Shown here in pieces: positions 14,091 to 57,525 of a DNA stretch of 64,000 nt. The notes under the pieces are model-generated. The model saw only the letters and a list, made by a program, of their open reading frames with translations. It did no database searches and had not been told where the DNA came from. This DNA is from Thuidium tamariscinum. Its lineage: Eukaryota; Streptophyta; Bryopsida; Hypnales; Thuidiaceae. The stretch is from NCBI GenBank assembly GCA_947034885.2, contig OX344749.2, positions 12,787,501 through 12,851,500 on the forward strand. Reading direction: 5' to 3'. Each line of letters begins with the position of its first letter. Within the stretch, counting starts at the first letter, position 1. A program made the position numbers and the translations under genes.

Positions 14091-14098
14091 CTTTTATA
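14091..14098 (-). promoter_or_regulatory. TATA box of X copy 1
   Basis: TATAAAAG on the minus strand, embedded in a segment conserved in all three X copies. It suggests the LTR promoter and sets the orientation used here for the family. Confidence 0.5.
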
Positions 14099-36436: not shown

Positions 36437-36445
36437 AACTTGAAT
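36437..36445. repeat. Left 9-bp target duplication of the MULE (AACTTGAAT)
   Basis: Identical to 57517-57525. Nine bases is the Mutator-superfamily duplication length, and the flanking Y sequence is continuous when the insert is removed. Confidence 0.9.
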
Positions 36446-36487
36446 CGGAGATGCTAGTTTGTGAGCATGAGCTTGTGAGCCTGTGAG
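36446..36487 (+). repeat. MULE left terminal inverted repeat, outer part
   Basis: CGGAGATGCTAGTTTGTGAG followed by CATGAGCTTGTGAGCCTGTGAG, made of repeated TGTGAGC-like words. X copy 2 is inserted directly after it, and the repeat resumes at 39703. Confidence 0.85.
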
Positions 36488-37882
36488 TGTGAGTCCCCAA
36501 TTCGTCACCGGGGACTCACGGGTTCTTTTTTCGAATTCCTACATAAACTAAGGCGTAATTAGGCTTATAAAACCTACAAAAGGGCATTAAACCGGTATTG
36601 GCATTACACATACCAATGTGCCATTTGGTCATTAGGTGGGATTTAGGATAGTTTACATCCAAAACGCCCCTTGTCTTAACTAAATAGACGCCAAACTGAT
36701 AGAGATGTATAGGATTAGGGTAAGAAGCCTAAAAAGGCCCTGTCTAGGCTAGGAAGTCCTCATAGGGGGATCTAGGAGGAATCCCCCACTCCCCATAGCA
36801 TCAAAGAGAATACGGGCGGAATACTAACCTTGAAATGCAGGTACCGGGCGATTTCCTAATTCTAGAAGCACGCAGTGGGGATGCATATTTGCATCAAAGT
36901 GGGGGGATTCCATGGGTGGTCCCTTCTAAAGTTTGGGAGTTTTCCAACATTGTTTGGATATTTCCCCAGACGGTCAACCGCGGTGGACTTTGGGTGGGAA
37001 TTTGAAAGAATATCCCAAAGTGCAGTAAAATCCCACTAAAAATCCGGCGAGGGGGTCTCACACCAACGGAGCGCTTCCCCAAGTTTCGAGACAAATCAAT
37101 AGTTGGAAGATCCCGAACCGGCGACATTCCTCCCCAACTGACAATTTAAATGACAGAAGTTGCAATTGACCGGCGTACCGGGGCCATACGACATCGGAAC
37201 GAAGCCTATCTTGGGTCTATTCCTACCCCCTTCCATCTACTTAGAAGATTGGTGAAGGTTTGGGGTCCAAAATTGCCAAACTCCAAAAGTTGGGAATTTA
37301 TCCCAACTTTGACCCCAACTTATACTAAGATTCCTTGAGAATTGGGACATATTTTAAAGTGTAAGGGGTCTCTTCCAAACTAATTATGGCCTTCCGGATC
37401 CAATGGCGCAATCCGTTTGCCATTCGGAACTAAACTCCAAAAGTTAGCCTTTTGGGGACAGCACATGGAGGAGAAATGGGGATTTAAGGCCGGGCCCCAA
37501 TGCTTTTTTGGAGAGTTTGGGCCCCAATGGCCGTGGGGAACGTTTAGGGAACGCGTGGGGAACTCCGGGCACATGTGGGAGCAAGTACCACCTCAAAAAG
37601 TTAGTGGAGGTGGCTCCAAGTGCTTGGTGTAACTAATTTCAAATTAAGTAGGTGGGAACACATGGAAACTTCTCCCATGTGAGAACTTGTAGATTTTGGG
37701 GAAGGTAAATTAGGTGGTTTTGCAAGTTCTTGTAAGGTTAGGTAAGATTTGAATTTCTCAATTCAAATTGTGTAGATTTTAGGTGGATAATTAGATTTGG
37801 GATGGTTTATGTACGGACCTCCTAAATTCCCTCATCTAGTTATTCTTAGTAGATTGAAGGGGGGGTGTTGCTCCCTTTTGAG

Positions 37883-37890
37883 TATAAAAG
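37883..37890 (+). promoter_or_regulatory. TATA box of X copy 2
   Basis: TATAAAAG followed by a pyrimidine-rich CTCTCATTCTCTCTC tract about 20 bases downstream, conserved in the three X copies. Probable LTR promoter, by inference. Confidence 0.5.
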
Positions 37891-39109
37891 GGGCGGCATT
37901 CTCCTCTCATTCTCTCTCTTTTCTTACTTCTACCCATTTAAGGGAGGACTATTGGGCCCAGGTTATGCCGGATTTCCTTTGGCTTTTGATGCCAAGGGAG
38001 CCTTTGATGCCAAGGGAGCCTTTGATGGTTTTTTGGAGTTTTTACACCCTTAGTAAGTATGGTTTGTGCTTGGGGACTTGAGACCCCCCCAAGTTGGTGG
38101 AACTTTATGCAAATTAATCTTGGTTTACTCTTGTATTGTGCCACATTTGAGAGGTGTTGTGGGAGAGAACTTGGGAGGAACCGAGGGGTTACTAGGGAGG
38201 TGACTTCGAGAGTATGCCGCATTGTGTGTCCACCCTCTTCTCCCTCTTCACCCTCTTCTCCCTCTTCTCCCTCTTCTCTTAGTCATGGGGTTAATTTAGT
38301 CCCATAGGGGACGGCGAAGCTATGAACCCCCACCCTTCCTAGAAACTGAAGGTCTTAGCCACTTGTCAAAACGCCTCACACTCACGGCGAAGCTTTGAAC
38401 CCCCTAAGTCTTAGCGGGGTGTCAAATAACCTTCCCCTTGAGTTAGAATTAATGTTTAGTGTCCAACACGGTTGGCACTAAGTCAACGTTTAGCATCCAA
38501 CATCCATTGGGTTAAAACCCTTGGGCCACATTAATTGTTTTTGTTAGAAAGTTCCTAGTTTCCACTTGAAAAGCAAAAATCCAAAGTTGTTTCTAAGCTC
38601 CAGCGCTGGACCAGCCAGCCAGAGCCCGCAGCCAGCCAACCAGCCGGGAGCCCCAGCCAGGTACCGTAGCCAGCCATCCGGGTCCGTAGCCGGGTCCGCA
38701 ACCGGGGGCCAGGGGGTTCGGGGTCCAAGGGCCTTCGGGGGTCCAAGGGGTCCTTGGGCAAAAAATCAGTAGAAATTAGTTGGGTTAGGGGATAGTATAG
38801 AAATTAGTTGAGCTAGGAAATAGTAAACACTAGTAGGGTGGGGAAGTAGTTGCAAAAAAGACCTACTTGTAAAAAACACCCAGAAGGGGATAATTAAAAG
38901 AGCCGGGGCCAAGACATGGCAATGATGGACGTGGCGTGGAGTGAAGAGGACCGGATGCACGGAACAGAGGTGGGCCTCTAAACCTTCCTTTGATTTGAAT
39001 TAATTGATGCAGTAGGAAATTAGTTAGTAGGAAAAGATTAACATCCCAAGTAAGATTAAGGTCTGGTGATTAGCAATCACGAATAGGAAGACAACCATAA
39101 AGAGAAGGA

Positions 39110-39480
39110 AAATAATGAATACCCGAACGTAGAAGTAGAAAAATACATAGAGTAGAAGAGTACAAATATATAGAGTAGAAGAAGACGTAGATTAGACTAA
39201 GACAAATACAAATACGTATAGTAGAAGAATACATAGAGTAGAAGAGTACAAATACATAGAGTAGAAGAAGACATAGATTAGACTAAGACAAATACATATA
39301 CGTAGAGTAGAATCAAGCAAAGACAAAGATGTAGATTAAAACAAATACATAGAGTAGATTAAAGGAAATACATAAAGTAGGCCAAGATGAATACCAAGAC
39401 GTAGAGTAGATTAAAAGAAGACAAATACATAGAGTAGTCTAAAGCAAATACGTAGAATAGGACAAGAGAACGAAACATAT
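39110..39480. repeat. Purine-rich tandem array of X copy 2
   Basis: Degenerate units such as CATAGAGTAGAAGAGTACAA repeated roughly every 25-50 bases. It is the reverse complement of the arrays at 42840-43380 and 9560-10120. Confidence 0.8.
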
Positions 39481-39707
39481 AAAGTAAGGAAGCAATTAGA
39501 AGTAGGACAAGGGAACGAAACAAGTACCCACCTAGGATAGTTAGGAATAACTAACTCGTGCGTTAGGATAATTAGAGTAGCAAAAGATCCATTGCTTGGA
39601 AGGCACAGTGGGTTTGACGCTTAGACACCCGTAGGAGTAGTTTTGTAAACAAGAGCCTAGTTGTGATCGCTTAATTCCAAGGGTGGGAATGAAGCGCCCA
39701 CAGTGAG

Positions 39708-40619
39708 CTTCCATTTTTTTATCCATTTAAGATTCCTAAATCTATTAGGAACCTATGACCGTGGAATTAAATGCAAGGATCTATAGTCCAAATGAAAAAC
39801 AAATGAATATGTTACTTTGTGATTATGTCCCCCAAAATTGAACCAAAATATATTTTTAAATTGAAATATTATAAAAATAGGAAATACTTTGTAAGCAACA
39901 CATAATGATGAAAATAGGTGTATTCAATAGTCTAGGTCTCTAGGATATCTCACTACAAAGACATATATGAAAAAAATACAATACATCATAATACCATTAT
40001 TTAAGGGGGACATTTATCATGTTAAAAATAGAAGGGGCAATAAACATGGATTGTAGAGGTTGAATATAAATTTGGTGATAGGCAAAATATTACAAGCACT
40101 ATATCATGAACAATGGTTTTGAGCTTATGACTAAGGAATAAATGTAGTCTCAATTGTTGGTCTTTATGTAAATTTAAAGAATGAAAATGGTCCTATCTTA
40201 TTTTAATTTTATAACAATGCTTTAAAATTAAAAACTAAAAAAATCTTGGATAGTAAATATTTAAAATATACATGATAGTCATATATTATATACAAAATAT
40301 ATGTATTAACTTAGAATGAATTAAGCAACTATTTTTCTAGTGAATGCCTTTATTTTTGGACTATCTTAGTCAAAAACAAATTTTCTAAAAACAAATTCAA
40401 TGCTAGTAGTTTAATTGAATTCCAAGCTAAAGTGTACTGTATAGAATTTTATAAAGTTTAATGATGTAGTGTAATTCAAGACTCATAATTTTATTGTTCA
40501 ATTTGGGCATAGGGTGAAGTCTTAGGCCATTAGTTGGGATCGTTGCCACATCATGCACAGTTAGATTCAATCTTAAAATAAAGTAAATAGAAATGAAATA
40601 TGAAATCATAAAATCAAAT
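39708..40619. other. MULE left non-coding region
   Basis: AT-rich sequence between the left inverted repeat and the end of the minus-strand gene. Its first 60 bases (through CCTATGACCGTGG, 39747) still match the right terminal region in reverse. The rest shows nothing I can assign. Confidence 0.5.
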
Positions 40620-40960
40620 TCAAATATCGTCTGACTCAGATGTAATGAGTTCAAAATAAGAACATATCCTAGGATGATAAGATCTACGAGGTGATAAAGA
40701 GACTGAAGATGAATCATATGAAACATCAGTATAAGCTAAAGCTAAATCTTCAGCATATGTAGGCAAACCTCGAGGACTCAAAGTAGGACTTTTAAAAAAT
40801 CCAGAGTGCCGATAAAAAGGCAAGGTTTGTCTTGGTGATGGACTCATCCAATTGCAAACAACAAGCCATATATTTGAGTATGTAGTAACAAATTAGAATA
40901 TTAAGGATAGAATTTTGAATTGCAATTGTTAAAAGAGAAATAAACATAAATAAAATTTAC

Positions 40961-42000
40961 TCATATAAGTCAAGTAGTTCGGCATCTTCAATTGGAGAGT
41001 CATCATCAATGCCCATACCATCGCTTGTAGTAGAAGAATCAAGAGTCTTGGAGATGGTTGTAGGTGTTTGTAATGGCTTGAGTACCTCATTAAAGAGCTT
41101 GGCATCACTTTCTAATGCTAAAATATGGCGATTAGATGAATGAGCTGCTCTGATGGAAGAACCTGATTAAGACACAATATTCACATGATAAGAACATCAA
41201 AATTTAAGGGTAGATTAAAACAATCAAATCACAAAATAGAAAATAATGATTCAATAATGTAGATTACAATACGTGTAGAGGCAGTCATGTTTGTAACAAT
41301 ACCACTTGTAGGGCTCAATCTATGAATAAAAAGCTTCATTAGAACCTTAAACTTCTCCTTAGTACCCCTCTATGTCTTGCCATCTTCCTTTCTACATGAT
41401 TGAGTTGTTGTCGTGATAGAATTGAAGAGGACGTCATCAGTGGCTAAATCAACTTCAAAAGTTGAGGAATCAATAGAAATCTGAAGCTCTTGAGGTTGTC
41501 TAGCAATAGGAGAGGCAGATGATCGAACCAACAACAAAGCCTTGAACTTCAATTTCAACAAACCAAAATCAAATTCAAATTAGAAGGTACATTTGAAATC
41601 AAAATAAGTGTAATAACAATTGAGTCAAAGGTAGAAGTGAAAAATTAAAATTACTGGTTACAAATTTGGATGAGTTCATAAGATGTGCCAAATATAAGCA
41701 ATTTATGATAGTCCACTCATCCTTCATCTTTAATTTGTAATTCTTGAAGAATCCAGCCACTTCTCTCTTCACTGTAGAACTGTCAGGTAAAAATAAAAGA
41801 AATGTTCCATCATCATGAAGATAGGTAAGAGAGAACGCCATCATCATATGGAGAAAACTTAGGATCCAATGCAAAATTTGAGATGGCGGATTTGAAATCC
41901 ATGGAACTGGAAGACCATCTAGATATTCTACAATGATGAGGTCCATAACTGATCTCTTTTGTATTTTTCTATCAAAAAAGAACTCTCTGCCTTCACCAAC
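40961..42000 (-). pseudogene. C-terminal methyltransferase-like exons (three exons)
   Basis: Exon 42000-41662 (splice acceptor TTTTTAG, donor GTAACC) is open throughout and includes SVMDLIIVEYLDG and HDDGTFLLFLPDSSTVKREV. Exon 41546-41273 (donor GTATTG) carries a stop after RKEDGKT, then RGTKEKFKVLMKLFIHRLSP and TNMTAST. Exon 41162-40961 (acceptor CTTAATCAG, donor GTAAAT) starts with SSIRAAHSSNRHILALESDA. The splice of the last two builds a T-A-S-T-x-S-S turn after a beta strand and is followed by an acidic-ending strand, as expected for a SAM-binding site. The position usually glycine reads arginine. Confidence 0.6.
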
Positions 42001-42174
42001 CTAAAAAGATATTTTTCAGAAATGTTAATTCATGATAAAAGATGTCAAAATTATAAAAGATGTCAAAGTCATAAAATAAAATAAATGAGAAGATGTAAAT
42101 TATGTAGAACATGTAAGATTTCATAACAATAAAAATGAGATAAAAAAATAAAATAGAAAGAATAAACTCACCTT

Positions 42175-42670
42175 TGAGTGAAAAGCTACAATGTTGTCAT
42201 ATAGTACACCAAATGTACCATTCTTCTTCTTATCTTCAACAATTCTAACAAAATAATCATTCAAGATTAGATTAAGAGATGTATGATTGGTAGACAAAGG
42301 AGCCGAAGCACTCATCATACCTTTAAGTTTGGGAGATAGTTTAAAGGTAGGAGAGGAAGTTGGTACTAAAACCACAAGAGTAGAAGATATCTTCTGGCGC
42401 TTTGAAGCAAGGAGTTTTGCTTCAGCATTGGAAAAAGAAGGTCCAGTGACAACAAGGTTCTTGAGAGTGTCTTCAAATGGTACATCTTCACTAGAATTAT
42501 CAAAATCAACCACCAATTTTTTTGATTTGGTCTTCCTAATCTTTTTAGTTGCATCCTTATCAACCACTTTAGGAACAACTATAACTATATCTTTGAGGGC
42601 GGACTTGATAGAATCTCAAAGGATAATGTCAAAAATAGGTGGTCTTTTGAGAGGACAATCCAAATACCAT
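42175..42670 (-). pseudogene. Exon of the methyltransferase-like gene downstream of the X insertion
   Basis: Continues the exon that reads ...FWDPMHWKKCGW on the other side of the LTR (to 48663). It runs through a charged linker (KKIRKTKSKKLVVDFDNSSE) to a good 5' splice site GTGAGTTT just after FHSK. One stop lies near 42617. The charged, low-complexity linker is followed by LILNDYFVRIVEDKKKNGTF, the start of a structured domain. Confidence 0.6.
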
Positions 42671-42839
42671 TGTGGGCGCTTCATTCCCACCCTTGGAATT
42701 AAACGATCACAACTAGGCTCTTGCTTACAAAACTACTCCTATGGGTGTCTAAGCATCAAACCCACTGTGCCTTCCAAGCAATGGATCTTTTGCTATTCTA
42801 ATTATCCTAATGCATGAGTTGGTTATTCCTAACTATCCT

Positions 42840-43380
42840 TGTTTCGTTCTCTTGTCCTACTTCTAATTACTTCCTTACTTTATGTGTTTCGTTCCCTTGT
42901 CCTACTTTACTCTCATGTATTGCATTTGGTTGACTATATTCTATACATGGCATCTGCTACCCCATCTCTACGTCCTTGTATTGGTTTTAGCCTACTCTAT
43001 GTATGCGTGTCCTTTTATTCTACCCTACGTATTGGTCTTTGTTTTAATCTACTCTACGTATTTGTCTTTGCCTTAGCCTACTCTACGTATTTATCTTGGC
43101 TTTGATCTACTCTACGTCTTCGTCTTCATCTAATCTACGTATTTGTCTTGGCTTTGGTCTACTCTATATATTTGTCTTGGCTTTAATCTAATCTACGTAT
43201 TTGTCTTGGCTTTGATCTACTCTACGTATTTGTCTTCGTCTTAGTCTAATCTACGTATTTGTCTGGGCTTTAGTCTAATCTACATATTCGTCTTGGTTTT
43301 AATCTAATCTACGTATTTGCCTTGGTTTTAATCTAACCTACGTATTTGTCCTTGTCCCTTCTATTTCACTTTTCCGTATT
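42840..43380. repeat. Pyrimidine-rich tandem array of X copy 3
   Basis: Units such as TAATCTACGTATTTGTCTTGG repeat with a period near 32. This is the most regular version of the array shared by the X copies. Confidence 0.8.
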
Positions 43381-43689
43381 CTATTTTATGTTTGCGTATT
43401 CATTCTTCAATCTCTCTCCTTAGTTATGATTATCTTCCTAATTGTGTTGGCTAATCGCCTACCCTTAATCCTACTTGGAATGCCAATCTTTTCCTATTAG
43501 TGAACTCCTAATTGCCTCATCTAATTAATACAAAGAGAGAGTTTTAGAGACCCACCTCCGTTCCGTGCGTCCCCCGTGTCCGGTCCTCTTCACTCCACAC
43601 CACGTCCATCATTGCCATTTCTTGGCCCCGACTCTTTTAATTATCCCCTTTACGGGTGGTTTTTACAAATAGGTCTATCCTCAACCTAT

Positions 43690-43870
43690 CTCCCAACCCT
43701 ACTAGTGTTTAGACTATTTCCTAACCCAACTAATTTCTAAACTAATTTTTAACCCAACTAGTCCCTAAACTATTCCCTAACCCAACTAATTTCTAAACTA
43801 ATTTTTAACCCAACTAGTCCCTAAACTATTCCCTAACCCCACTAATGTCTAAACTAATTTTTAACCCAGA
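43690..43870. repeat. AACCCAACTA-type short tandem repeats
   Basis: Units like CCCTAACCCAACTAATTTCT and AACTAATTTTTAACCCAACT alternate four to five times. A related but less regular array is at 10400-10560 in X copy 1. Confidence 0.7.
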
Positions 43871-44327
43871 TACCCCCGAACCCCAAGGCCCCTGGACCCC
43901 CAAGGACCCCCGACCCCAAGGCCTCCGACCCCAGCCCCTGCGCCTAAGGACCCCCGACCCCTGGCTGGCCGTTGACTAGCTGTGGACCCGGCTGCTTGGC
44001 TGTGGACCCTGGCTGACTGGCTAGGGCTCCAGCATTGGCTGGAGCTTGCAACAAACTTTGTTTTTTTTTGTTTTCAAGTAGAACTAGTAGTTCCTTAACC
44101 AAAACAAGTTAATGTGGCCCAAGGGTTTTAACCCAATGGTTGTTGGATGCTAAACATTGACTTAGTGCCAACCATGTTGGACACTAAACGTTGCTTTTAA
44201 CTCAAAGAGAAGGTTATTTGACATCCCGCTAAGACTTAGGAGGTTCAAAACTTCGCCGTGAGTGTGAGGCATTTTGACACGTGGCTGAGACTTTTAGTTT
44301 CTAAGGATGGTGGGGATTCATAGCTTC

Positions 44328-44570
44328 GCCGTCCCTTATGGGACTAGATTAACCCCCATGACCAAGAGAAGAGGGAGAAAAGGGTGAATACACAATTTCT
44401 CAAATGCTAATAGCCAAAGCTTCGCCGTCCTCTATGGGACTAGATTAACCCCGTGACCAAGAGAAAAGGGAGAAGAGGGTGGGCACACACTTCCTAGATG
44501 CTAATAGTTAAAGTTTCACCGTCCCCTATGGGACTAGATTAACCCTGTGACCAAGAGAAGAGGGAGAAGA
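44328..44570. repeat. Triplicated 100-bp block in X copy 3
   Basis: Three successive units each contain CTTCGCCGTCC (or TTTCACCGTCC), TATGGGACTAGATTAACC and GAGAAGAGGGAGAA-like sequence. Confidence 0.8.
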
Positions 44571-44896
44571 GAATGAACACAAGATGCAACATACTCTCAA
44601 AGTCACCTCCCTAGTAACCCCTCGGTTCCTCCTAAGTTCTCTTCCACAACATCTCTCAATAGTGGCACAATACAAGAGTGATCGAAGATCAAATTGCATA
44701 AAATTCCACCAACTTGAGGGGTCCCAAGTCCCCAAGCACAAACCACACTTACTAAGGGTGTAAAAACTCCAAAAGACCATCAAAGGCTCCCTTGGCATCA
44801 AAAGCCAAAGGAAATCCGGCGTAACCCGGGCCCAATAGTCCTCCCTTAAATGGGTAGAAGTAAGAAAAGAGAGAGAATGAGAGGAGAATGCCGCCC

Positions 44897-44904
44897 CTTT
44901 TATA
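44897..44904 (-). promoter_or_regulatory. TATA box of X copy 3
   Basis: TATAAAAG on the minus strand, in the same sequence context as 37883-37890. Confidence 0.5.
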
Positions 44905-45916
44905 CTCAAAAGGGAGCAACACCCCCCCTTCAATCTACTAAGAATAACTAGATGAGGGAATTTAGGAGGTCCGTACATAAACCATCCCAAATCTAATTAT
45001 CCACCTAAAATCTACACAATTTGAATTGAGAAATTCAAATCTTACCTAACCTTACAAGAACTTGCAAAACCACCTAATTTACCTTCCCCAAAATCTACAA
45101 GTTCTCACATGGGAGAAGTTTCCATGTGTTCCCACCTACTTAATTTGAAATTAGTTACACCAAGCACTTGGAGCCACCTCCACTAACTTTTTGAGGTGGT
45201 ACTTGCTCCCACATGTGCCTGGAGTTCCCCACGCGTTCCCTAAACGTTCCCCACGGCCATTGGGGCCCAAACTCTCCAAAAAAGCATTGGGGCCCGGCCT
45301 TAAACCCCCATTTCTCCTCCATGTGCTGTCCCCAAAAGGCTAACTTTTGGAGTTTAGTTCCGAATGGCAAACGGATTGCGCCATTGGATCCGGAAGGCTA
45401 TAATTAGTTTGAAAGAGACCCCTTACACTTTAAAATATGTCCCAATTCTCAAGGAATCTTAGTATAAGTTGGGGTCAAAGTTGGGATAAATTCCCAACTT
45501 TTGGAGTTTGGCAATTTTGGACCCCAAACCTTCACCAATCTTCTAAGTAGATGGAAGGGGTAGGAATAGACCCAAGATAGGCTTCGTTCCGATGTCGTAT
45601 GGCCCCGGTACGCCGGTCAACTGCAGCTTCTGTCATTTAGATTGTCAGTTGGAGAGGAATGTCGCCGATTCGGGATCTTCCAACTATCGATTTGTCTCGA
45701 AACTTCGGGAAGCGCCCCGTTGGTGTGAGACCACCTCACCGGATTTTTAGTGGGATTTTACCGCACTTTGGGATATTCTTTCAAATTCCCACCCAAAGTC
45801 CATCGCGGTTGACCATCTGGAAAAATATCCAAACAATGTCAGAAAATTCCCAAAATTTAGAAGGGACCACCCATGAGATCCCCCCACCTAGATGCAAATC
45901 TGCATCCCCACTGCGT

Positions 45917-48275
45917 TGTCGTGGTGTAAATACATACATTGTATACAATGTATGTTTATTATACGTTTTAGAAGATTCTTGATTTGGAGAAGAAACTTTC
46001 TGATGACGCTTCCGTTAGCTTCAAGTTGACGCTTGTTAACGATGGAATTGTATTTAAGGTGAAAAAACCTTGGACAAACTTCATCAATACGAAGTATTCT
46101 TTGAGTTTTAAAATTTGGATTTGGATTTGGAGCTCGATTGTAAAATGTTGAACTGGAGGGTTTTTATAGAGTCACAAGATGTTGAGTCTGAGCCAGAGGC
46201 AGAATTAGAGCTTTCTTTATCACAGTTGCCTAGTCAGCCATCTCAGTCGGCGTTTTCACGACCACTACCTACATATTTCACAGATGAGGCCGGACCTTCT
46301 CGTCCGTTGAAGAAACCTCGTGTGGACCGTCGTTGGCATGGAAATCTTGATCGAAACACCCGAGCTTTGGTGATTCTACTTGAAGTAGGATGTGTTGAAC
46401 GTAGGACACATGATGTGATGTTCGAAGCAAGCTATGAGGGCCTGAATGAAGACCAATATTTTTGCTTGATGAGGCCTGACAGTGAAGGCACTAGCCATCA
46501 ACATTGGTTAAAAGGGCCAGTGAATCCATTAACGAAGGCTGAGCGTGCAGATTACATGGTCAATACTATCAGGCGCATCCTCAAGTTCTTGCAGATGGAG
46601 TAGTCCTCTTCTTCAACTTTAGTTTTTACCTCCAATGGATGATGAATGGAGTTTAATATGTTATTCAAGTGTTTGATGGTTCATCTAAATTTTAGAAATA
46701 AAAGAATGGGAGTTTAGAAGTAATTTACTACCTAGTTTTGACTTTAGAGGTTTATTGGCCTTAAAGGGTAAATAGGAGCTTACCTTTGGATGTTTTCCTT
46801 GGGCCAATGGTGGTTTGGAGGCCCATGTGTGATGCATATGGGCTGGTCCTACCTACCTTAGGAGTCTAGAGACTAAGTAGGCATCTTCTTGCTCCTCCAA
46901 GTCAACTTTCTGTGGGGAAAAAGTTATTTAGTTGTTTTGGGGTTTGGTTGGAGATGTGTGTAGTGAGTCGAAACTTTGATCGGCCATAACCTTTAATGTA
47001 CAAACAATCTTGCAATGAGAATTTAAAGGTTTTTTTCCTTATATTTTTGCGCTTCTATTCATACCTTTCTTGCTTGATTTGGAGTTGTGAGTGAGGAGTT
47101 ACAAGCGTGTGAGTGGAGGAGGGTCTGCTGCCTCACACCGAAGAGGAGCAAAGATTCGGGCGACCACCACAGTCTTTATTTTCATCTTCTCTCTTTGAAA
47201 ATTTTAGGCATTGTAATAGTTTTTCTTAGCTTTCTATAGACGTATGACTCGAAACATTTGAAGTTGTGAGTCAAAAGTTATGTGTTGTCAAGTTATAAGG
47301 AGTCTGTTGCCTTTCAAATGAGAAAGCCGAGACTTTGCTTGATCATAACTTTTGTTTGGTTATTTAGAATGTTTTGAGATTTAAGGTGGAGTTATTTTAA
47401 GTTCTTAGATCTTTGAAAAGCTATAGTACTTGTGATTTGAATAAAAATTGAAGGAGTTATAAGAGTTTAAGATAGGAGAAGTTTGTTGCCTTTCAATAGA
47501 GAAGGCCGAGACTTTGATTGTCCATAATTTTTGTACAGTATCTTAGATTCATTTGAGAATTTCAGGGTAGTTGTATTATGTTGTTTGCTTTTCAAAATGC
47601 TATAGCACTTAGCATTTGAGCTTATAGAACATCTGTAGTGCTAGTTTGAAGACTACAACCATTTACAAAAGTTTTTTTGAAACTATTTGGGTTTTTTTTT
47701 CAAGTTTGGGTGAAAGAAGATTCCAAGTTTCAAGACTTTGGAGATTTGAAGACCCTTGGAGGTGTTGTTTGTGTTGTGGCTTGTGGTTCAACAGGGTTGT
47801 TTTCATTTGTTATTCCCAGCCGGTTTTGGAGGCTAGTTGCAATTTCAATTTCAGCTTTGTAAACTGTTGCGAGCCGTGGTTATCCAGTAATCGCTCATTT
47901 TTGTGTTTGTAGCAACGAAGTGGGGTTAATGGTCCACATGGTCGATCTTATATGTTGTTCCCACCGATGAAAGGCGCTTTCTGGTCACTGTGGGGTTTGA
48001 AGTTTAGGAGCCCATCATCCGGACGGTCACTCGTGTTGGCCGTCCCGTTTTACCTATTCCGGAACTTGTTTTTTATCACACATTCTTACCTTGGCCCTTT
48101 AGAACCACCACAGGGTAGGCCAACGGGGACCTGATCAAGAATTGAAGACTGAAGATAAGAAGATTGAAGACAGAAGACATAAGACAGAAGATTCGACTGA
48201 ACTCCCTAGCGGACTATTCATAGTTGCAGCCAAATACTTCGTGTATTTCCAAAGCGCTCCCCTCTCAACACGACA
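45917..48275 (+). mobile_element. TGTC...GACA element, ORF-bearing family, copy C (intact ORF)
   Basis: Begins TGTCGTGGTGTAAATAC and ends CTCAACACGACA. The terminal 7 bases TGTCGTG/CACGACA are inverted repeats. Flanks are an exact 4-bp duplication GCGT (45913-45916, 48276-48279), and the empty site CTGCGTGCTTC is preserved in X copies 2 and 1. Length is 2,359 bp. After the ORF come about 1.6 kb of non-coding DNA with repeated GCCGAGACTTTG boxes (47329, 47503) and a terminal region very similar to the minus-strand 11190-11560 of copy A. It is the youngest layer of the second nest. Confidence 0.85.
46115..46603 (+). CDS. Uncharacterised 162-residue protein of the TGTC...GACA element family
   Basis: Intact frame of 162 codons. 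The ATG at 46145 (MLNWRVFIESQ) is the better start because similarity with copies A and B begins there, giving about 152 residues. The N-terminal third is acidic and rich in Ser, Pro, Leu and Gln (EPEAELELSLSQLPSQPSQS), probably disordered. A basic patch follows (RPLKKPRVDRRWHGNLDRNT), which could be a nuclear localisation signal. The C-terminal half is ordered (ALVILLEVGCVERR, FEASYEGLNEDQYFCLMRPD, HWLKGPVNPLTKAERADYMV) and ends in a helix (NTIRRILKFLQME). I recognise no family. Conservation of frame and protein sequence among three copies at separate sites argues that it was a real gene. A role in element control or silencing escape is speculation. Confidence 0.75.
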   Translation: MDLDLELDCKMLNWRVFIESQDVESEPEAELELSLSQLPSQPSQSAFSRPLPTYFTDEAGPSRPLKKPRVDRRWHGNLDRNTRALVILLEVGCVERRTHDVMFEASYEGLNEDQYFCLMRPDSEGTSHQHWLKGPVNPLTKAERADYMVNTIRRILKFLQME

Positions 48276-48667
48276 GCGTGCTCCTAGAATTAGGAAATCA
48301 CCCGGTATTTGCATTTCAAGGTTAGTATTCCGCCCGTATTCTCTTCGATGCTATGGGGAGTGGGGGATTCCTCCTAGATTCTCCCATGAGGACTTCTTAG
48401 CCTAGACGTGGCCTTTTTAGGCTTCTTACCCTAATCCTGCACATCACTATCAGTTTGACGTCTATTTAGCTAAGACAAGGCCCGTTTTGGATGCAAACTA
48501 TCCTAAACCCCCTCTAATGACCAAATGGCACATTGGTATGTGTAATGCCGATACCGGTTTAATGCCCTTTTGTGGGTTTTACGAGCCTAATTATACCTTA
48601 GATTATGTAGGAATTCGAAAAAAAGAACCCGTGAGTCCCTGGTGATGAATCGGGGACTCACAACCAC

Positions 48668-49060
48668 CCACATTTTTTCCAATGCATGGGATCCCAAAAT
48701 TTCATGATCCCTTTTGTAAACATGTACTCTTCATTTTTTTTGTCCAAATAATTGGCAAAGAAAGTAGGAGTTCTAAAAATGGCTTTGGTAAAAAAAAGGA
48801 TATACTTGAAGTACCTATAAAGTACCCTTTGCATGGCTGATTTGAAGTTGAGTTGCTTGTCTATCTTATTGTTCTTGTGAATCCCCTTATCCACAACAAA
48901 TTCACAGAAGAATGCAGTATCCCACAACATTATGCGCATTGTCTCCACATAATCAAAAATGATAGGCAAGGGATCCATACCATCATGAAGATAGTTAATA
49001 AACACGTCCAAATCAGCCATTGTAGCATTGAAAAGTTTTTTTTGTTTCAATAGCCAATTG
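48668..49060 (-). pseudogene. Exon of the methyltransferase-like gene upstream of the X insertion
   Basis: Open from about 49050 to the insertion site. It reads MADLDVFINYLHDGMDPLPI, YVETMRIMLWDTAFFCEFVV and ends FWDPMHWKKCGW at the LTR. The frame continues in sense on the far side of the LTR at 42670, confirming a single exon. Acceptor site not resolved. Confidence 0.6.
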
Positions 49061-49159
49061 ACATGCAGACAAATTGTAAATTAGAAAAATGTTTTGATTG
49101 ACCCAAAAGGTTCAAAGAAGTAGTACTAAAACAATAGGAAAGAAAGACAAGTATTCATT

Positions 49160-50695
49160 TGAGTCCACCATGTAGCTTTCTGAAGCTACTCAAGGAAGTC
49201 AATGTCACTAAATTTCGGTTTACGAAATTTGAAAGCCTCATGAAGAGGAGACTTGTTCCACCTCTCAAGCTACTTGATCTCCATGGAAGTATCCATCGTT
49301 GAAGTTGCCAACATCCAAAGTTTCTCCTAGGTCATCTTCGGATTGTCATCATGAGTTTCATAATGAACCTTTATCTACTCCAAAAATGCGGTCGTATGCT
49401 TCGAATCTACAAAGGGAAGTTAGTTGCTTCTTCAATTCTGAATGGGAAGCTACGTTGACTTTGTCAACAGCTTTGGAGACCGACTCAGAAACTACACTTG
49501 AAGTCCACTCTGTTGGATTGAGATACTTCTCATAGAATTTTCTTTGAGCCGCAGTAGGAGCATCCCCCAACTTTTGTTGCACAAAGTAAAGAATGTATAA
49601 GAATAAATAAAATTGCACATGATAACAAATGTTTTGCATATTTGATCAAGAGATATAAAATCAAATGAAAGAAAGAAAAAATGTGAAGAAGTCTAAACAT
49701 TCAAGAAAATATGAAGTCAAAAAAAGAAATTAAAAAGTAAACCTGATATAAGACTCCATTTAGAGCCTTGAGAGTTAGAGTGAACTAAGTTCTTTGTTTA
49801 GACTTTTGTTTGGCTTTAGCTACAACAAGATCCTCCTTAGAAACAAGTTTCTCAAAATATGAGAGTGGTTGTTCAGCAATACTTTGAATGCGATAGAGCT
49901 TGTGAACAAGATTTATAGAGATATAGGGCTTCTGGTTTTGCTTGCCAAAATAAAATTTATTGTATTAGAATATATAAAATAAACATTCAACTAAAGAAGG
50001 TAGAATAGTGGTACATTCAATATTCTAAACCACATAAACTTTGAAAATTGAGGAATTGAATAAAATGAAAATTGATAGAGAAACATAAGGGAATACTAGT
50101 TGACTTCATGTAATGCCATCAACATAGTCACAACATCCCCTTTGACCTCCAAAATGATATTTTCAACAGCATAATGCCATTAAAAGTTGTCCGCATGATC
50201 TCGGTTGATAAGAGACAACCATGCTTGCAAACGATGATTGCCATTCCATCCCATAAACATCTTGTCAGAAAAAGCTTTGAGATCTTCCTCATTTTGCAAT
50301 TCTCTCTCAAATGCAACATTTGCTCTCACCTAGTTTAAACTCCACATTTTGATTATGTCATCCGTGACATCTAGTGTCTTCTCCTCATTGTTCTCCAAGG
50401 CAATATAGAAAACTCCATTTCCTTCAATGTAACCACAAGTAACAAAGTATGCAACTAAATTCATGACATCATTCTTCAAGAAAGGCCTCACCACTGGTAG
50501 AAAGATCATACTACACAAAGGAATATTGATTTTTGATTTAACTCATGGTTGATACCTCAATCGCTCAAGAAGAGAAAAAGTATTCATAGTCTCCTTCTTC
50601 AAGAATCCATACAACTCTAACTCCAATTGATCTTGAGATAGAGGCTGAAATGCGACATCTACTCTCTGTACTTGTAGATCTTCTTCTGTCAACAT
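49160..50695 (-). pseudogene. Middle exons of the MULE minus-strand gene
   Basis: Four exons. 50695-50556 (acceptor TTTCTTCAG, donor GTATCA) reads MLTEEDLQVQRVDVAFQPLS. 50510-50097 (acceptor TTTGTGTAG, donor GTATTC) reads VRPFLKNDVMNLVAYFVTCG with two stops. 49940-49743 reads KPYISINLVHKLYRIQ with one stop. 49570-about 49160 reads QRKFYEKYLNPTEWTSSVV and KSPLHEAFKFRKPKFSDIDF with further stops. No catalytic motif is recognisable in this part. Confidence 0.55.
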
Positions 50696-50769
50696 CTGAA
50701 GAAAAATGTATACAAGAAGATTAGAAGAAGTTGTAATTTATACATATGTACAATAAAATATGCAATTTA

Positions 50770-51600
50770 GTATAGGAAGCGTTAATAGATGTGGTCTAAG
50801 AAGGCCCAAAAATTTCAGTATAAAATCAAATGCATAGCATGTATTAGAAGCGAATGCAAGTCTCTAAAAGTGTGGCCGTTCACGACTGGGATCTAAGAAG
50901 TCCTCTAAAATTTCAACATTTGGTAAGTTAATAGCGATGTAGCACATATTGATAGCAAATGCAAGTCATTAAAAGTGTGGCCGTCAACAGCTGGGGTCTG
51001 AGAGGTCCTAAAAGAATTCAGCATTTGACAATTTTATAGCAATTTAGCATACACCAATAGCAAATGCAAATCTCTAAAAAATGTAGCCGTGAACGGCTAG
51101 GGTCAAAGAAGTCCTAAAAAATTTCAGTATTTGACAAGTATTCATACATGTAGCATATTTAGACAACAAATTTATGTCTCTGAAAGTATAGTAGTCAACA
51201 GTTGGGGTCTAAGAAGGTCACGAAAATTTCAACATTTGATAGAATCCCTAATGTTCTAAAGAAACAAATGAATGTCTTGAAAGCATGGCCGTCAATGGCT
51301 GGGGACCTGGGGTCTAGAATGGCCCAAACATTTTAGTATTTGACTACTTCATAGTATCTATTCGAAGCAAATCTAAATCTCCAAAACCATAGCCATTAAT
51401 GGCTAGGATTTAGCAAGGCTCCAAAATTTATAATGCTCCACAAAATTGTAGCACTAAAAACCCTAAACTAACATTCAAAAAACAATGGTTGTTAACAGCC
51501 GTCCATTACAAGGGCAGACATCAGCAAAATTCTAACCAATGTTGAAAGCAAAGTAGAATCGAAAAAAGCGCAGCCGTCAACGGGTGGGGTCTAGGAAGGC
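50770..51600. repeat. Intronic tandem repeat (about 100-bp unit)
   Basis: At least seven degenerate units with the order AAATGCAAGTCTCTAAAAG, GTGGCCGT(C)AACGGCTGGG(G/A)TCT, AGAAG(G)TCC and AAAATTTCAGCATTTGA. It lies within the intron between 51619 and 50696 of the minus-strand gene. Confidence 0.75.
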
Positions 51601-51619
51601 AAAAAAAAGAACCACGCAC

Positions 51620-51780
51620 CTGGATTTGCCTTAGTTGCTGCACTTGTTGTTTGCTCATTTCCTTGGATCACCGTTTTTCCATGCTCAACTCGCCACTCTA
51701 ATTCCGCTACAACCTCCCCTTCCTCCATGGTGGGAGCTTCTCCGTCTTCCTCTTCTTCCGTATGTTGATGCTCCAATGCC
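51620..51780 (-). pseudogene. Second exon of the MULE minus-strand gene
   Basis: Acceptor GTCTTTGAAG, then an acidic reading (HTEEEEDGEAPTMEEGEVVA and IQGNEQTTSAATKANP) up to donor GTGCGT. A long intron (51619-50696) follows with several diverged units of about 100 bases containing GTGGCCGTCAACGGCTGGGG-like sequence. Confidence 0.5.
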
Positions 51781-51840
51781 TTCAAAGACAACATGCGAAG
51801 AAACAACAAGGCTTAAATAAGTTGAAGCAAGTTTCAAAAA

Positions 51841-51859
51841 ATATATATATATATATATA
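51841..51859. repeat. (AT)n microsatellite
   Basis: Nineteen bases of perfect alternating A and T. Confidence 0.9.
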
Positions 51860-52274
51860 GAATTGGTAGATGTACCTCGAGGGAATCTTTTGAATAACTT
51901 CTTCAATTTTCAAGATTTCAAGCCAAATTTTTTTGTACCCACAGATTCTACAGGTCAAATTTCCTCTAGTTTCTTTCAGAATTTTTGGACACTCGAGTGA
52001 TTTTACAAAAATTGCCAAAAAAACTGCTAAAACTTGAAGGCTTGGATTTGGCCTAAAAATCAACGAATTCTGAAGACTTCAAGAAAGATTCCAAGATGCT
52101 GTTTTAGTTTTTAGGCCGTAAAACACTCAATATGCATCCATTTTTTACATGCTATATATTGTTGGAATTGTGCTTCCAACGCGCACAAAATGATATAAAG
52201 TTGCTAGAAATGTGTCACAAAAGAATTTCACATACTTTCTAATTTACCATTGCTTGGAGAAATTATTTACATAC

Positions 52275-52559
52275 CATTTTATTTGTACCTCCAAGCTCTA
52301 CTTCCAACTCTAGTGTTTGTACTACGAATTGTTGTTGTTATTCTTCTTGTTCTTCTTCTTTGTCTTCGTCTACTTCATCTTCTTCTTCATCAATGTTTTG
52401 ATCACAATTACTATAGCTAGAGGCAATCTCTGGTTGAACTTCACAAGAAATATGCCCAACCTCTAAAATATCCTCTCTTATTGCTTCACAAGGAACTATA
52501 CCTTCATATGTTAAATTCCTCTTTGTGCTCAACAAATCTGCTACACTCATTCGAAACAA
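52275..52559 (-). pseudogene. First exon of the MULE minus-strand gene
   Basis: ATG at 52557-52559 begins MFRMSVADLLSTKRNLTYEG, followed by a very acidic tract (EEEDEVDEDKEEEQEE) and a TAA stop at 52338-52340. The frame then continues to a donor site GTATGT (just below 52275). The stop would truncate the protein after 73 residues. Confidence 0.5.
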
Positions 52560-53361
52560 CTATCTAATCATTCTAGCCCTTAACAATTGCTTTCTACTTG
52601 AAAAACAAAAGCTACTTTTCCTCCTCTTCTTTTTCCTACCTGCAACTAGAGTATCTAATATTAACAATGGAGAAAGCAAGTCCTCTTGCATCTGAAATAA
52701 TCAACTATCAAAGCATTACAATATCAACATCTGCCATACTATACCACACCTTCTTCCTAACTCAAATTTCTATCTGCTACTTCATTATGTCCATCAAGCT
52801 TTCATAATCTATGAGACTTCAAGGACTCCTCTTTGTAAAGATATAGTTTCATTTCATCATTACGTAACGGCTAGTTTTATTTTCTATTTGAATCATCATC
52901 AACCACTAGATTCTTAACCTGTCACTAGATATATAATTATAATTCTAAGCATGTCGTATGTCATCATCAACTCTAATGCATGACAGCTTACCATCTTTTT
53001 TTAGTGATAGTTTTAACACTGACAACTTTGTTTGATACATATCAATATTCTTCATACTATAATCCATTTATTATTGGTGATGCGCTAATTGATGCCATGC
53101 AGTACGCTGCCTTACCCAACTCCATTTCACCTACTATTAATGTACCTTCTTCTATATCAAATCTTCATATGATATTCATTGATGAATGACCATTCAAATC
53201 ATCAATTCAATTTCAAATTTTACTACATCCATGAAAAAAATTCCATTCATTTGGAACAATCCTATAATTTTATCCTTCATATTCACACCCCTTGCACTCA
53301 CAAACATCATTTCTTGCTTCTTTGTACTTGTTTTGCCTCTAGTTTTCTTTAATGCTTCATT
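52560..53361. promoter_or_regulatory. Divergent intergenic region of the MULE
   Basis: About 800 bases separate the first exon of the minus-strand gene from the first transposase-like frame. Divergent genes sharing a central promoter region are the layout of MuDR-type elements. No specific TATA box could be chosen with confidence. Confidence 0.35.
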
Positions 53362-53614
53362 GTGGCTAGTATTGTTGCTAAAGGTCATGATGTCCCATTT
53401 CTTTTACCACTAGATAGTCAAGGTTTTGTTCATGTGCACATTGATCTCTTTCATATCTGGTTTGAATTCACTCCTTCTTCTATTATTGTAGAGGAAGAAG
53501 TTCAAGGAGACTATGATGTTGTTAAAGAGTCTATTTTGAAGTCAAGATGTCTATAGTGATCATGAAGGATTCTATTGGCTTCTTCCTACACAATGTTATA
53601 GAGTTTACAGTCTC

Positions 53615-54355
53615 TTGTCGGAGCTCTTGCCACCTTCAACTGAAATATTAACACCTACTTCTGATATGTCCGAGGGTAAACACCCATTACCCTATCTTGT
53701 AAAAGTAGAGTCCCTAAGTAGTGGATGCTCCAATAATACAATTGGATTCAATGTTAAACGCAAGCCTTTGGAACCTATTATAGAGTTGTCTAGTGATTCT
53801 GAAGGGGAGACGCTAATTAAAGCTCAGCAACCATCTTCTTCAAATGTTGTTTTGCCATGTGTGGTAGATTCATCTATTCCTACTATTTTCCATAGTACAC
53901 TTAGTAGTCCAGTATCGTTCGGGTTTTCTCATCCTCTTCTCCCTCCCAATCATCATGATTTCTTAACTGTATTAGAATGCCTTTGCAAATTGTCTTCAGT
54001 GTGTGTATCACGGATTGAACTTGCCCAAATTGATTTTGATGCCATTGACTATCAAAAGGTTCAATTCCTCCCAGCTAGATTTGATGGTAATGTTCTTTTT
54101 GAGTTGCCACCTTGTAGTGGATCTACATATGGAGCTAGAGGCATGGAAGGTATAGACAAGCGGTATGATGGTCATGCATGGTGTCGCACTATGACATCAA
54201 ACATCCATAATGAATTAGGTTTGAAGTTCAGAAAGTCGCATTGTATCGAACACTTGATTTGTGAAAATACAAAATTTGACTACCGTACACGAGCTTTGAA
54301 AAGCAATGAAATTGAGTGGATTGGGACTACTAAACATCCTTTTAGCGTAGGTTAA
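53615..54355 (+). pseudogene. Transposase N-terminal open segment
   Basis: Longest open piece of the transposase (246 codons). The Ser/Thr-rich first half (ELSSDSEGETLIKAQQPSSS) looks disordered. The second half (VSRIELAQIDFDAIDYQKVQ, then AWCRTMTSNIHNELGLKFRK) looks folded. The ATG is internal: the frame is open upstream without a methionine and joins earlier coding-like sequence from 53362 by a frameshift. Confidence 0.65.
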
Positions 54356-55106
54356 ATCCCTCCCCTTGACTCTACCATATTTTGTAAAGTCTGTAGACAA
54401 CGTCCTACTTGTCTCAGTCTATGTAACTCACGGATTTATTACGTACTCAGGACCAGAGATTTGTCACGTGCATGCATCTATTTGGATGTTCATTCATATC
54501 CAGTTGTTGATGGTCAGTGTAGAGAGTCTCTTCAAGCGATAACTGGGTAATGAAATAGCTAGGACTCCAACAGCCAAAACTTCTGCTATTACCTTGACGG
54601 CAAGTAAAGAATTCCTTAATACGTTTCTTATTCACAGTGGGCCTGAACCAAAAGAAATGCTTCACGGTGATGCGTTTAAGAATGTTATAGATAAGTTCAA
54701 GCTCTTTAGCTCGCCCAATGTACACAACATCATATTCTCTTTCCAAAGCAACAACAAAGGTGGAGGCAAGATTGATCGAATTTTAGACATGAAGGGACGT
54801 GCCAAAATAGAGTATATCCACGATAGTGTATTTTCAAGATAAGGGCAAGACAAGGTGTATTTATTCAAGATGCTCGTGGATGGACCTGGAAGTGGAGTGG
54901 ATCTTGTACGACGAATGCAACCAGGCGGCAACCTTGAGAATTGTTTTGTCATGTTTGATCATGCCAAGAGGGTGAAATTATGAACAACTATTGCTTGTCA
55001 CGTCTATGATTCTACTTATTGTAAAGTTATGACCATTACAGTATGTGATATGCAGACTAAGGGCTCTGAAGGTCCGATCATTTTTTGATGTTGTCTAAAT
55101 AAGTTC

Positions 55107-55469
55107 ATGGTAAAAAATGGAGTGTCAAATCCTACCTTCAAGGGATTCATGTGCGATATTGCTCAAGCCAACTTTAATGAAGTTTGCACTATGTATGGAT
55201 CGGGGGATCCATCTATTCCAATGGTAGACCGTGAAAGGACTTGCTCATTCCATTGGGCAACAAGTATGCACAAGCACACAAAGAAGTTAATCACCAAAAA
55301 GTTCCAAAAACAGCATATCCAACTTTGTAAGCAATATAAGGATGCAACATCAATGTCTGAGGCCGATAAGATGTGCCTAGAAATAAAATCTTGGTGGTAT
55401 TCTTCTGGAGCTACATCAGAACCAGCTATCCGTGAATTTGAGGATTGGCTAGCATTTTGGCACTTTTGA
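55107..55469 (+). pseudogene. Transposase catalytic core segment
   Basis: Open for 120 codons: NPTFKGFMCDIAQANFNEV, DRERTCSFHWATSMHKHTKK and AIREFEDWLAFWHF. The Asp of MCDIA and the C-x-x-H of CSFHW correspond to the second catalytic region of MULE DDE domains. A downstream acidic residue in the EFEDWL helix could be the final Glu. Confidence 0.75.
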
Positions 55470-55499
55470 TATTATCAATGGGGTGCATTCATAGATACG

Positions 55500-55589
55500 G
55501 TATGATCTCTATTTTTATTGTTTGTTTTTCTATTTTTTATCCTACATGCTAAATGTTTTAAATAATGACTTCATTTATTATGTTTGCAG
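55500..55589 (+). other. Intron of the transposase gene
   Basis: Begins GTATGATCTCT and ends TATTATGTTTGCAG. It is rich in T and separates two coding segments that are in register after splicing. It shows the element is a DNA-level copy and not a retrocopy. Confidence 0.7.
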
Positions 55590-56400
55590 AAATTAACAAC
55601 AGAAGAATTAGCAGACATTCCAACATGCAATCTAGTAGAAACAATGCACAACAAATGGATGCAAGCTTCAGGGAAGCATGGATCTGATTTGTTCATTGCT
55701 ACTTGTGATGACTAGGTTCAAGCCTTTATGCTGATGACCAACTATAGGGCTTATCTTTGTAGAGGCCCTTCTGGAAAAGGCCCTTCTAAAGAAGATTTGA
55801 AATTGAAGAGGGCTATGGCATCTGGAGATGGAAAAAAAATTGCAGATGCACTTAGTGAGATGCTTGGAGCAGAAGACATATGCACTCGAATTCCGCATTT
55901 AGAGGGTGAAGAAGTATTTGGATCTAGCAAAAGGAAATTAGATCTTCCTATTGGTTTCTAAGGTGATTCTCATCGCCCCAACAAAGTGAACTTTTCTCAT
56001 CCTCAGGTTCAAATTAGGTCAACTACTAGTAGAGTGCAACTTGCATTTGCAGTTGAAGAAACTAATATAGTTTTACCCCATACCCAATCTGTCATGGAAA
56101 TTGACTATGATACTGCAAAATGGCATATAGCGAGAATTTCACACAAACCAAGGAAACAGTGTCATGCCATTCAGAAGTACACACAAGCCAAATGCAAGCT
56201 ATTGATTGTGAGGCATGGAATATCCACTACTGCCCCTATTTATAGAAGGCAAAAGCGTGAGTATAAGGGCACAACAATTCAAACTGAGGATTATTGGTTT
56301 TGTGCAGACCAAATTGCACAATGCATCATGGGACCTAAACATTTCCATGTTCTTACTCGACCTGAAATCCCTGAGATCTAGACGGTTCTTATTGGTACCA
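55590..56400 (+). pseudogene. Transposase segment after the intron
   Basis: Reads NLVETMHNKWMQASGKHGSD, a stop, then QAFMLMTNYRAYLCRGPSGK, LGAEDICTRIPHLEGEEVFG and, after another stop, DTAKWHIARISHKPRKQCHA with paired cysteines. It connects the DDE core to the SWIM region. Confidence 0.65.
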
Positions 56401-57289
56401 ATCTTACTCATACTGAAATTATAGAGTTTGAAGAAGTTGAATTTCGCTTGCAGTTCAACATTCCGATGTCACCGCGCCAGCTATTCACCTCATCTAGGGT
56501 ATTTGAGCCAATGTTGTGGACTCACCCTCAACCAACACATGCTGACAAAATTCCTTCCATTCAGAATGGCAAACAAATTCGTTAGAGCAGTAAGACCTCC
56601 ACTGAAAATCACCGCAATCAATGGAAGAGTGCCAGGAATGTTACAACAAGTATCACTATGATGAACTTCCTTCCTTACCTTGGACTTGGTGCTATTATTA
56701 CACTTTTGTCTGGTAGTGAGCCTAATCAAAAGGTTTATAATATCACGCTTTCCAATTTTTCATCTTGTACTTGTCCCCATTATGGAGGTACGAATGGAAC
56801 TTCCATTGGAAAGCATGGCATGTACATAAACTGCAAACATCTTTATTACATCTTTTGTTACTTCTGCAAATTGGATTACAAGACACACATTCATTCACGT
56901 TCCTACATTTAGTTTGGATGAAGTTAAGCAAGTACTTGTTGCTGCCGGAATCATCAAGACGTGCGAGTGAAGTCAATGAACAAGTTAGGTGACTAGTATT
57001 AGCATGATATGAAGTAAATATGTAGTAGCAATATATTATCTTCAAAATTTTCATATATGCAAAGTAGTATTATATTTATATTTGAATATGTATTCTTTGT
57101 TGCAATGAAATAATATTTTATTATCTACAGGATGAGGAATTATTTTTTATATTTTCATTGCATTTGTCTTTTTATCAATTTTAGAATTCCCTTTGGATGA
57201 ATTATTTGCACTTTCACTTTATGAGCTTACTCTAGAACGACCTTTGAAAACATGATATAAATCTGAATATAAAATTTGAACTTGTAATA

Positions 57290-57516
57290 GCCCCAACTTT
57301 CTAGGTTTTTAAATCCACGGTCATGGGTCCTATAGCAATAGGTCATATTTTCTAAAAATAATAAATTTTGTTGAAAAAACATCAATTTATTTTACTTTTT
57401 TACTAAAGAAAATCAAAAGTTGTATCATAATTCAAATTTGTAGACTTTAGGCTCACACAATTCCTACTCACCACTCATAGGCTCACGCTCACATGCTCAC
57501 ATGCTAGCATCGTTGC
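57290..57516 (-). repeat. MULE right terminal region and inverted repeat
   Basis: The outermost 45 bases contain TGAGCATGTGAGCGTGAGC-type words (read reversed), as at the left end. A second matched block around 57310-57330 contains CCACGGTCATGGG, the reverse complement of the CCTATGACCGTGG seen at 39747. Confidence 0.8.
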
Positions 57517-57525
57517 AACTTGAAT
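57517..57525. repeat. Right 9-bp target duplication of the MULE (AACTTGAAT)
   Basis: Exact match to 36437-36445. Confidence 0.9.

Follow-up and report, generated by a model that had tools for sequence, protein, structure and literature searches.

Several transposons are known to carry genes that act on chromatin or DNA modification; three groups of them, and one host gene associated with transposons, come closest among eukaryotic systems to the case described here. The VANDAL elements of Arabidopsis, a type of Mutator-like element (MULE), carry VANC genes that act against silencing, and their short non-coding motifs are recognised self-specifically (PMC13317346); Phytophthora MuDR and HarbingerS elements carry SET histone methyltransferases (PMC12730594; SET table entry in PMC6446971); fungal DNA transposons of the KDZ, EnSpm-type, Helitron and other groups carry TET/JBP dioxygenases (PMC12730594); and N4CMT of bdelloid rotifers, a eukaryotic protein from the N6_N4_Mtase superfamily, is associated with transposons (PMC8885841). 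The word 'methyltransferase' occurs 0 times in the VANDAL review (PMC13317346), Mutator and MULE are named 0 times in PMC12730594, and MuDR appears there in the introduction only. No MULE with a beta-class methyltransferase gene was found in the open-access literature that we searched. Here we analyse a 64,000-nucleotide stretch of the moss Thuidium tamariscinum (GCA_947034885.2, contig OX344749.2, positions 12,787,501 to 12,851,500; hereafter the window), which holds a MULE whose transposase gene is paired with a second gene with a C-terminal domain that appears related to the beta-class DNA amino-methyltransferases CcrM and DpnA.

Like the VANDAL MULEs, this element combines a transposase with a resident gene of a different kind; unlike VANC, judged by Pfam rather than by comparison with VANC sequences, both parts of the second gene give only weak, sub-cut-off Pfam matches, the best of them to N6_N4_Mtase. 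The association of a transposon with an epigenetic-modifier gene is shared with the SET-bearing elements of Phytophthora, whereas SET enzymes are protein methyltransferases of a different fold and the partner here is a relative of beta-class DNA methyltransferases. Fungal TET/JBP transposons likewise have a resident DNA-modification gene, of other chemistry. Like bacterial CcrM and DpnA, the second gene has the motif order IV-X-I, and it aligns with CcrM over the domain, but it has lost DPPY and FxGxG, has a long N-terminal part ahead of the domain and lies inside a transposon. A 2016 survey of eukaryotic adenine methyltransferases reportedly may touch on the clade to which it belongs. Rotifer N4CMT differs in being a host gene with an intact SPPY motif and a chromodomain, and its N4-methylcytosine (4mC) at transposons helps silencing (PMC8885841).

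Our favoured explanation, to which we assign a rough probability of 45%, is that the second gene encodes a DNA-binding helper with a methyltransferase fold, anti-silencing or transposition-assisting, in a MULE with two resident genes, and that it works without the usual DPPY chemistry. The transposase would perform the transposition reaction, while the second protein would have retained the fold for binding and lost ordinary DPPY-type methylation. Acting as a self-specific helper, it would bind DNA, most likely at the ends of its own element, where the hexamer RTGAGC forms arrays, and would either counter host silencing by 5-methylcytosine (5mC), by analogy with VANC in VANDAL MULEs, or aid transposition. 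If this is correct, the conflict between transposons and DNA methylation has given rise to a transposon with a resident relative of bacterial DNA methyltransferases that was kept over long divergence. Such an element would also offer a testable candidate for a transposon-borne epigenetic factor beyond VANC, SET or TET/JBP, as well as a natural test of the role that the methyltransferase fold plays once its catalytic motif has been rewritten.

The unit runs from 36446 to 57515/57516 of the window between two copies of a 10-bp target-site duplication, directly inside which lie the inverted tips CGGAGATGCTAG... and, as reverse complement, CAACGATGCTAG....
36436..36445, no strand: left target-site duplication CAACTTGAAT, read directly and matched to the right one
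36446..36487, plus strand: left MULE tip with three RTGAGC units, cut by long terminal repeat (LTR)-type insert 1; 10 of 11 other copies have a matching tip
57396..57515, minus strand: right MULE end, tip ...CTAGCATCGTTG with an inward array of four GTGAGC units, from the comparison of tips among copies
57516..57525, no strand: right target-site duplication CAACTTGAAT, matched to the left one

A preliminary description of this locus had delimited it by inverted repeats and a duplication, which stand, except that the duplication has 10 bp and not 9; its 21 kb does not hold as the size of the element, which measures ~12 kb once two LTR-type inserts are set aside. The insertion into a repeat that it had proposed also fits our data: when the flanks are joined in silico, they align through the junction (65% identity over 859 columns) with another copy of the flanking repeat that lies nearby at 34573-35418, an empty-site paralogue, as expected for insertion into a repeat. 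Both genes that it had placed inside the unit are present and divergent, the transposase on the plus strand and the second gene on the minus strand, and both are broken by stops and frameshifts in the window. Duplications of 10 bp in the window and 9-10 bp elsewhere lie within the 9-11 bp of MULEs, and the terminal inverted repeats are short and imperfect, consisting of the tips CGGGGATGCTAG and CAACGACGCTAG (reverse complement) and the inverted RTGAGC arrays.

A search of the genome (363 Mb, 19 contigs) with window positions 48663-57516 returned at least 53 matches, from the 22 of 744 candidates that were scored, which group into at least 17 places including the window. The methyltransferase side was retrieved for 11 of the 16 further places (named c1 to c10b); of the five not retrieved, one (L025) shows the beginning of the methyltransferase segment, and in c10b the first 682 bases of that segment are absent from the sequence examined. 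Whether the two genes always occur together, a question left by the preliminary description, is answered for the retrieved copies by 11 pairs in 11, two of them interrupted (c2 and c3, where match coordinates, not joined sequences, place ~3.4 kb and 23 kb of other sequence before the transposase is reached). In the eight copies with both ends covered, the tips read CGGGGATGCTAG... and ...CTAGCGTCGTTG, with a single-base difference in one copy, and all eight are flanked by exact duplications of 9 or 10 bp; matching tips and exact duplications in every such copy mean that the borders are not due to chance. The copies are 93.6-97.3% identical to one another and, depending on the segment, ~84-92% identical to the window, so that we take the window copy as an older branch. 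It is a dead, older member of the family, later struck by two LTR-type repeats.

Comparison of the copies gives a predicted model of the second gene with ten exons, against the about eleven first estimated, with GT-AG borders and matching phases in copy c6. In the window its parts are as follows.
52275..52691, minus strand: exon 1, basic patch and acidic tail, 2 stops
51620..51775, minus strand: exon 2, aligned part
50849..51239, no strand: tandem repeat of ~105-bp units within intron 2 (exon 2 to exon 3)
50100..50685, minus strand: exon 3, 3 stops
49743..49941, minus strand: exon 4, 1 stop
49160..49576, minus strand: exon 5, frameshifted and with stops
48663..49057, minus strand: exon 6, part preceding LTR-type insert 2 (DNA and frame read)
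42172..42669, minus strand: exon 6, part following LTR-type insert 2
41662..42000, minus strand: exon 7, open, coding for the part of the methyltransferase-like domain around motif IV (DLIIVEYLDGLP in the window)
41276..41553, minus strand: exon 8, aligned part with 1 stop, covering the motif X region together with the first half of motif I
40961..41162, minus strand: exon 9, remainder of motif I (SSIRAAHSSNRHILALESD)
40620..40851, minus strand: exon 10 and stop

Which exons are open varies by copy, exon 7 being open in 9 of 11. The ratio of nonsynonymous to synonymous substitution rates (Ka/Ks) between the window and eight copies is 0.53-0.64 over six exons and 0.57-0.71 for exons 7-8 alone, values that leave out exons 2, 6, 9 and 10 as well as copies c6, c7 and c9 and that are diluted by the decay of the dead window copy. 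This constraint, together with the pairing of the gene with a transposase across diverged families (below), suggests that the second gene matters to the element.

Exons 7-9 encode a domain of ~277 residues, and related genes elsewhere in the genome help to place it. Although the window family by itself falls short of the profiles, as set out below, three paralogous families, whose spliced domains share 33-37% identity with it, exceed the PF01555 (N6_N4_Mtase) cut-off of 26.7 with 31.6, 29.3 and 28.7 bits. In the PDB, a profile of all four families has matches to CcrM (6pbd; profile positions 15-229, E 8.4e-5) and, in the motif X-I part, to DpnA (5hek, E 2.3e-4), and three of the four match the NCBIfam CcrM model (best 4.1e-5). 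In the CcrM alignment the motifs follow one another as IV, X, I across the whole domain, as in beta-class amino-methyltransferases. The impression that the last exons resemble a beta-class enzyme dependent on S-adenosylmethionine (SAM) is thus borne out by these profiles, from which we conclude, on sequence grounds, that the C-terminal domain of the second gene is homologous to beta-class DNA amino-methyltransferases of the CcrM/DpnA type.

The catalytic motif of the beta class is [DNS]PP[YFW] and its SAM motif FxGxG, and neither is kept. Where DpnA has DPPYN the alignment shows D-I-P-E-N, and where CcrM has DPPYNL it shows D-I/V-P-E/D-G-L; across five families, counting a fourth related kind of gene at L002 (a locus originally examined for its LTR), motif IV reads EYPD, DIPD, DIPE, DVPE and DVPE, with the consensus D/E-[IVY]-P-[DE]. 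Within the window family (12 sequences) it is EYPDG in four, EYPNG in three, EYLDG in three including the window and KYPDG in one, copy c10a being unread because of a stop. In motif I the four aligned families share D-[MCF]-[TYK]-A-[ST]-T-G (DMTASTG, DCYASTG, DCKATTG, DFTASTG), which keeps the second Gly only, and L002 has DCTASTS; L-x-V-P, IP-x-WN and PWRG are invariant in the four. Since the change in motif is common to the five families it must be old, and with motif IV not DPPY and motif I altered in all five, ordinary methylation is doubtful.

These residues bear directly on the rival view that the protein is an active DNA amino-methyltransferase with unusual motifs, making 4mC or N6-methyladenine (6mA), which would mark the element's own ends and evade or redirect host 5mC. 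Homology to CcrM over the whole domain speaks for activity, and so do several conserved residues: in motif IV four of five families keep the first Asp and all five the Pro, while the Glu of LALESD/LALEDD and motif I's second Gly do not vary among the four aligned families. Against it, all five families have other residues in place of motif IV's aromatic one and of the first Gly in motif I, the window family has Glu in place of the first Asp, and rotifer N4CMT becomes inactive once the Ser and Tyr of SPPY are changed to Ala (PMC8885841). On balance we consider an active enzyme rather unlikely. Self-marking of the element by the gene product, as suggested in the preliminary description, is not supported in that form: no DPPY occurs in any copy or family read, and the copies carry a deamination trace of host 5mC silencing (below).

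The partner of this gene in the window is a broken transposase of two exons, located by tblastn of the relative P0001.
53362..55499, plus strand: transposase exon 1, broken (stops, frame changes, first codon not ATG)
55590..56970, plus strand: transposase exon 2, SWIM-like zinc finger, broken

The protein is of the RNase-H-type DDE class, in line with the MULE-type transposase first proposed for the plus strand. A place in the Mutator/IS256 lineage in particular is possible, the best structural match being ISCth4, of the IS256 family. The SWIM match of the window frame scores 13.3 bits, under the cut-off of 19.6, a GCM/WRKY-like region is also zinc-finger-like, and the 718- and 467-aa frames of copy c6 match no Pfam family. 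Among metagenome and genome assemblies the transposase family counts 62 relatives (P0001-P0062), all of them lacking a precomputed Pfam domain.

Evidence that the two genes belong together extends beyond the window family. Scanning the genome with PF01555 gave 43 single-exon places, all sub-threshold; of the ten retrieved, eight match the window-family domain by tblastn (L050 and L055 do not), and both the motif-IV and the motif-I exon are matched in L051, L052, L053, L057 and L059. They form three multi-copy sets, 90-96% identical internally (L051/L052/L054, L056/L058/L059 and L053/L057), so that with L002 and the window's own there are at least five families. The exon 6 region around WYLDC/WYLEC is common to L051-L053 (E <= 1.6e-4) and extends weakly to L002 (E 0.37). 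Tandem units like those inside the window's second gene, here of ~180 bp, also occur in the first 1300 bases of L056 and L058.

The geometry of the window family predicts the position of a divergent transposase, and we examined the corresponding stretch at three loci; a transposase is found at two. Upstream of L059, L060 (C5:4705800-4708900) holds an open frame of 402 aa that runs into the end of the examined stretch and is a transposase homologue (up to 43% over ~400 columns against metagenome relatives of the element transposase, 52-60% over the better half). Upstream of L052, L061 matches most of the transposase at 42-57% in the eight best rows, its frame being broken once. As a rough base rate, transposase matches are listed for none of 18 loci (L001-L008 and L050-L059). 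The pairing in 11 of 11 copies and in two of three paralogous families argues that the methyltransferase-like gene is a long-standing resident and no chance capture. In favour of a captured fragment without a role, MULEs tend to acquire host gene fragments (PMC6446971); here, however, the gene is complete with its ten exons, paired in all copies retrieved, paired again with a homologous transposase in two of three tests among paralogues at 33-37% identity, and shows Ka/Ks < 1. Pairing across copies and families largely contradicts chance capture, which we regard as very improbable. The minus strand of L060 also has an open frame that resembles exon 1 of the window-family second gene in its basic patch (KKKRKRRK) and acidic tail.

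At the element ends, the outer 120 bp of the eight copies with both ends hold 2-7 RTGAGC units on the left and 5-8 on the right, in a single orientation, against 0.02-0.03 expected from the interior, and these arrays are a candidate target of the second protein. They also bear on the rival proposal that this protein is required for transposition, in end recognition or complex assembly, and not for silencing, its fold serving as a DNA-binding scaffold. Arrays at both ends and the pairing with the transposase agree with such a role, yet the transposase brings zinc-finger-like modules of its own (the weak SWIM and the GCM/WRKY-like region), and we judge a role confined to transposition unlikely. 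Bolder still is the idea that an ancient MULE lineage employs an amino-methyltransferase with a rewritten motif to place a non-5mC mark on the RTGAGC arrays, thereby evading or resetting host cytosine methylation; this we hold to be improbable.

Silencing has left traces in the same eight copies. At columns where at least six of the eight agree, C>T and G>A changes account for 1,036 of the 1,420 departures from the majority base, at rates of 5.5% in CG, 6.2% in CHG and 1.9% in CHH. This is the trace of plant-type 5mC, so the copies were methylated, and it points to a land plant as host.

Several observations weigh against a helper with a methyltransferase fold. The heavy CG and CHG deamination means that the host silenced these copies anyway and that any anti-silencing failed for them. 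The RTGAGC arrays could serve the transposase alone, binding of the second protein to DNA or to RTGAGC in particular being our inference. Intact copies, which the preliminary description had wished to see sought, did not turn up: the second gene is open in all ten exons in none of the 11, and any present-day function is thus hypothetical. The window-family domain alone scores 14.8 bits against PF01555, below the cut-off of 26.7, and only over profile positions 146-217 of 221 (the region of motifs X and I); alone it has no methyltransferase match in the PDB, and it is the one family of four that fails to match the NCBIfam CcrM model. At the third paralogous locus tested, L062 (C4:31529200-31531800, upstream of L057), there is no transposase, only two matches at E ~0.01. 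The expected transposase position at L062 is occupied, at 238-1938, by a 567-aa open frame with the protein-kinase-like motif HNDITPENIML.

The two inserts that lengthen the window copy belong to one LTR-type family.
36488..39702, plus strand: LTR-type insert 1 (TGTGAGTCCCC...GCGCCCACA), 3.2 kb, with the 5-bp duplication GTGAG at 36483-36487 and 39703-39707
42671..48662, minus strand: LTR-type insert 2, of the insert-1 family, 6.0 kb, longer by a 2.4-kb block and splitting exon 6 of the minus-strand gene, with flanks GTGGT/ATGGT (one mismatch)

Self-comparison of the window shows them as an inverted repeat pair inside the unit, both with the ends TGTGAGTCCCC and GCGCCCACA, that is TG..CA, and with 5-bp duplications, exact in insert 1 and one base off in insert 2. 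Because they flank methyltransferase exons in this arrangement, one might suppose two nested elements, with the methyltransferase-like gene part of an element inserted in the 36.5-48.7 kb half. Each repeat, however, is bounded by TG..CA ends and a target duplication of its own, and the insert-2 site is empty in 11 of 11 other copies, where the methyltransferase-like segment continues straight into the remainder. Insert 2 is therefore younger than the element, and nesting, contradicted by these 11 copies, is scarcely tenable. The insert-1 site is empty in ten of 11, the eleventh being without that part. Reading the 36.5-48.7 kb half as a single fold-back element carrying the methyltransferase exons was likewise overturned by the TG..CA ends, the 5-bp duplications and the insert-free copies.

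The first ~313 bases of insert 1 have 95-97% matches at no fewer than 39 genome places besides the window (at least 39, from the 40 of 671 candidate places scored). A further copy of the repeat, ~6 kb like insert 2, lies at 9470-15492 of the window, and the 2.4-kb block is absent from insert 1. In L002 (C1:6173002-6176318) the LTR-type repeat, at ~1473-1900, adjoins exon 6 of another methyltransferase-like family, and insert 2 also lies in exon 6; with two cases only, a target preference of the repeat for exon 6 is possible.

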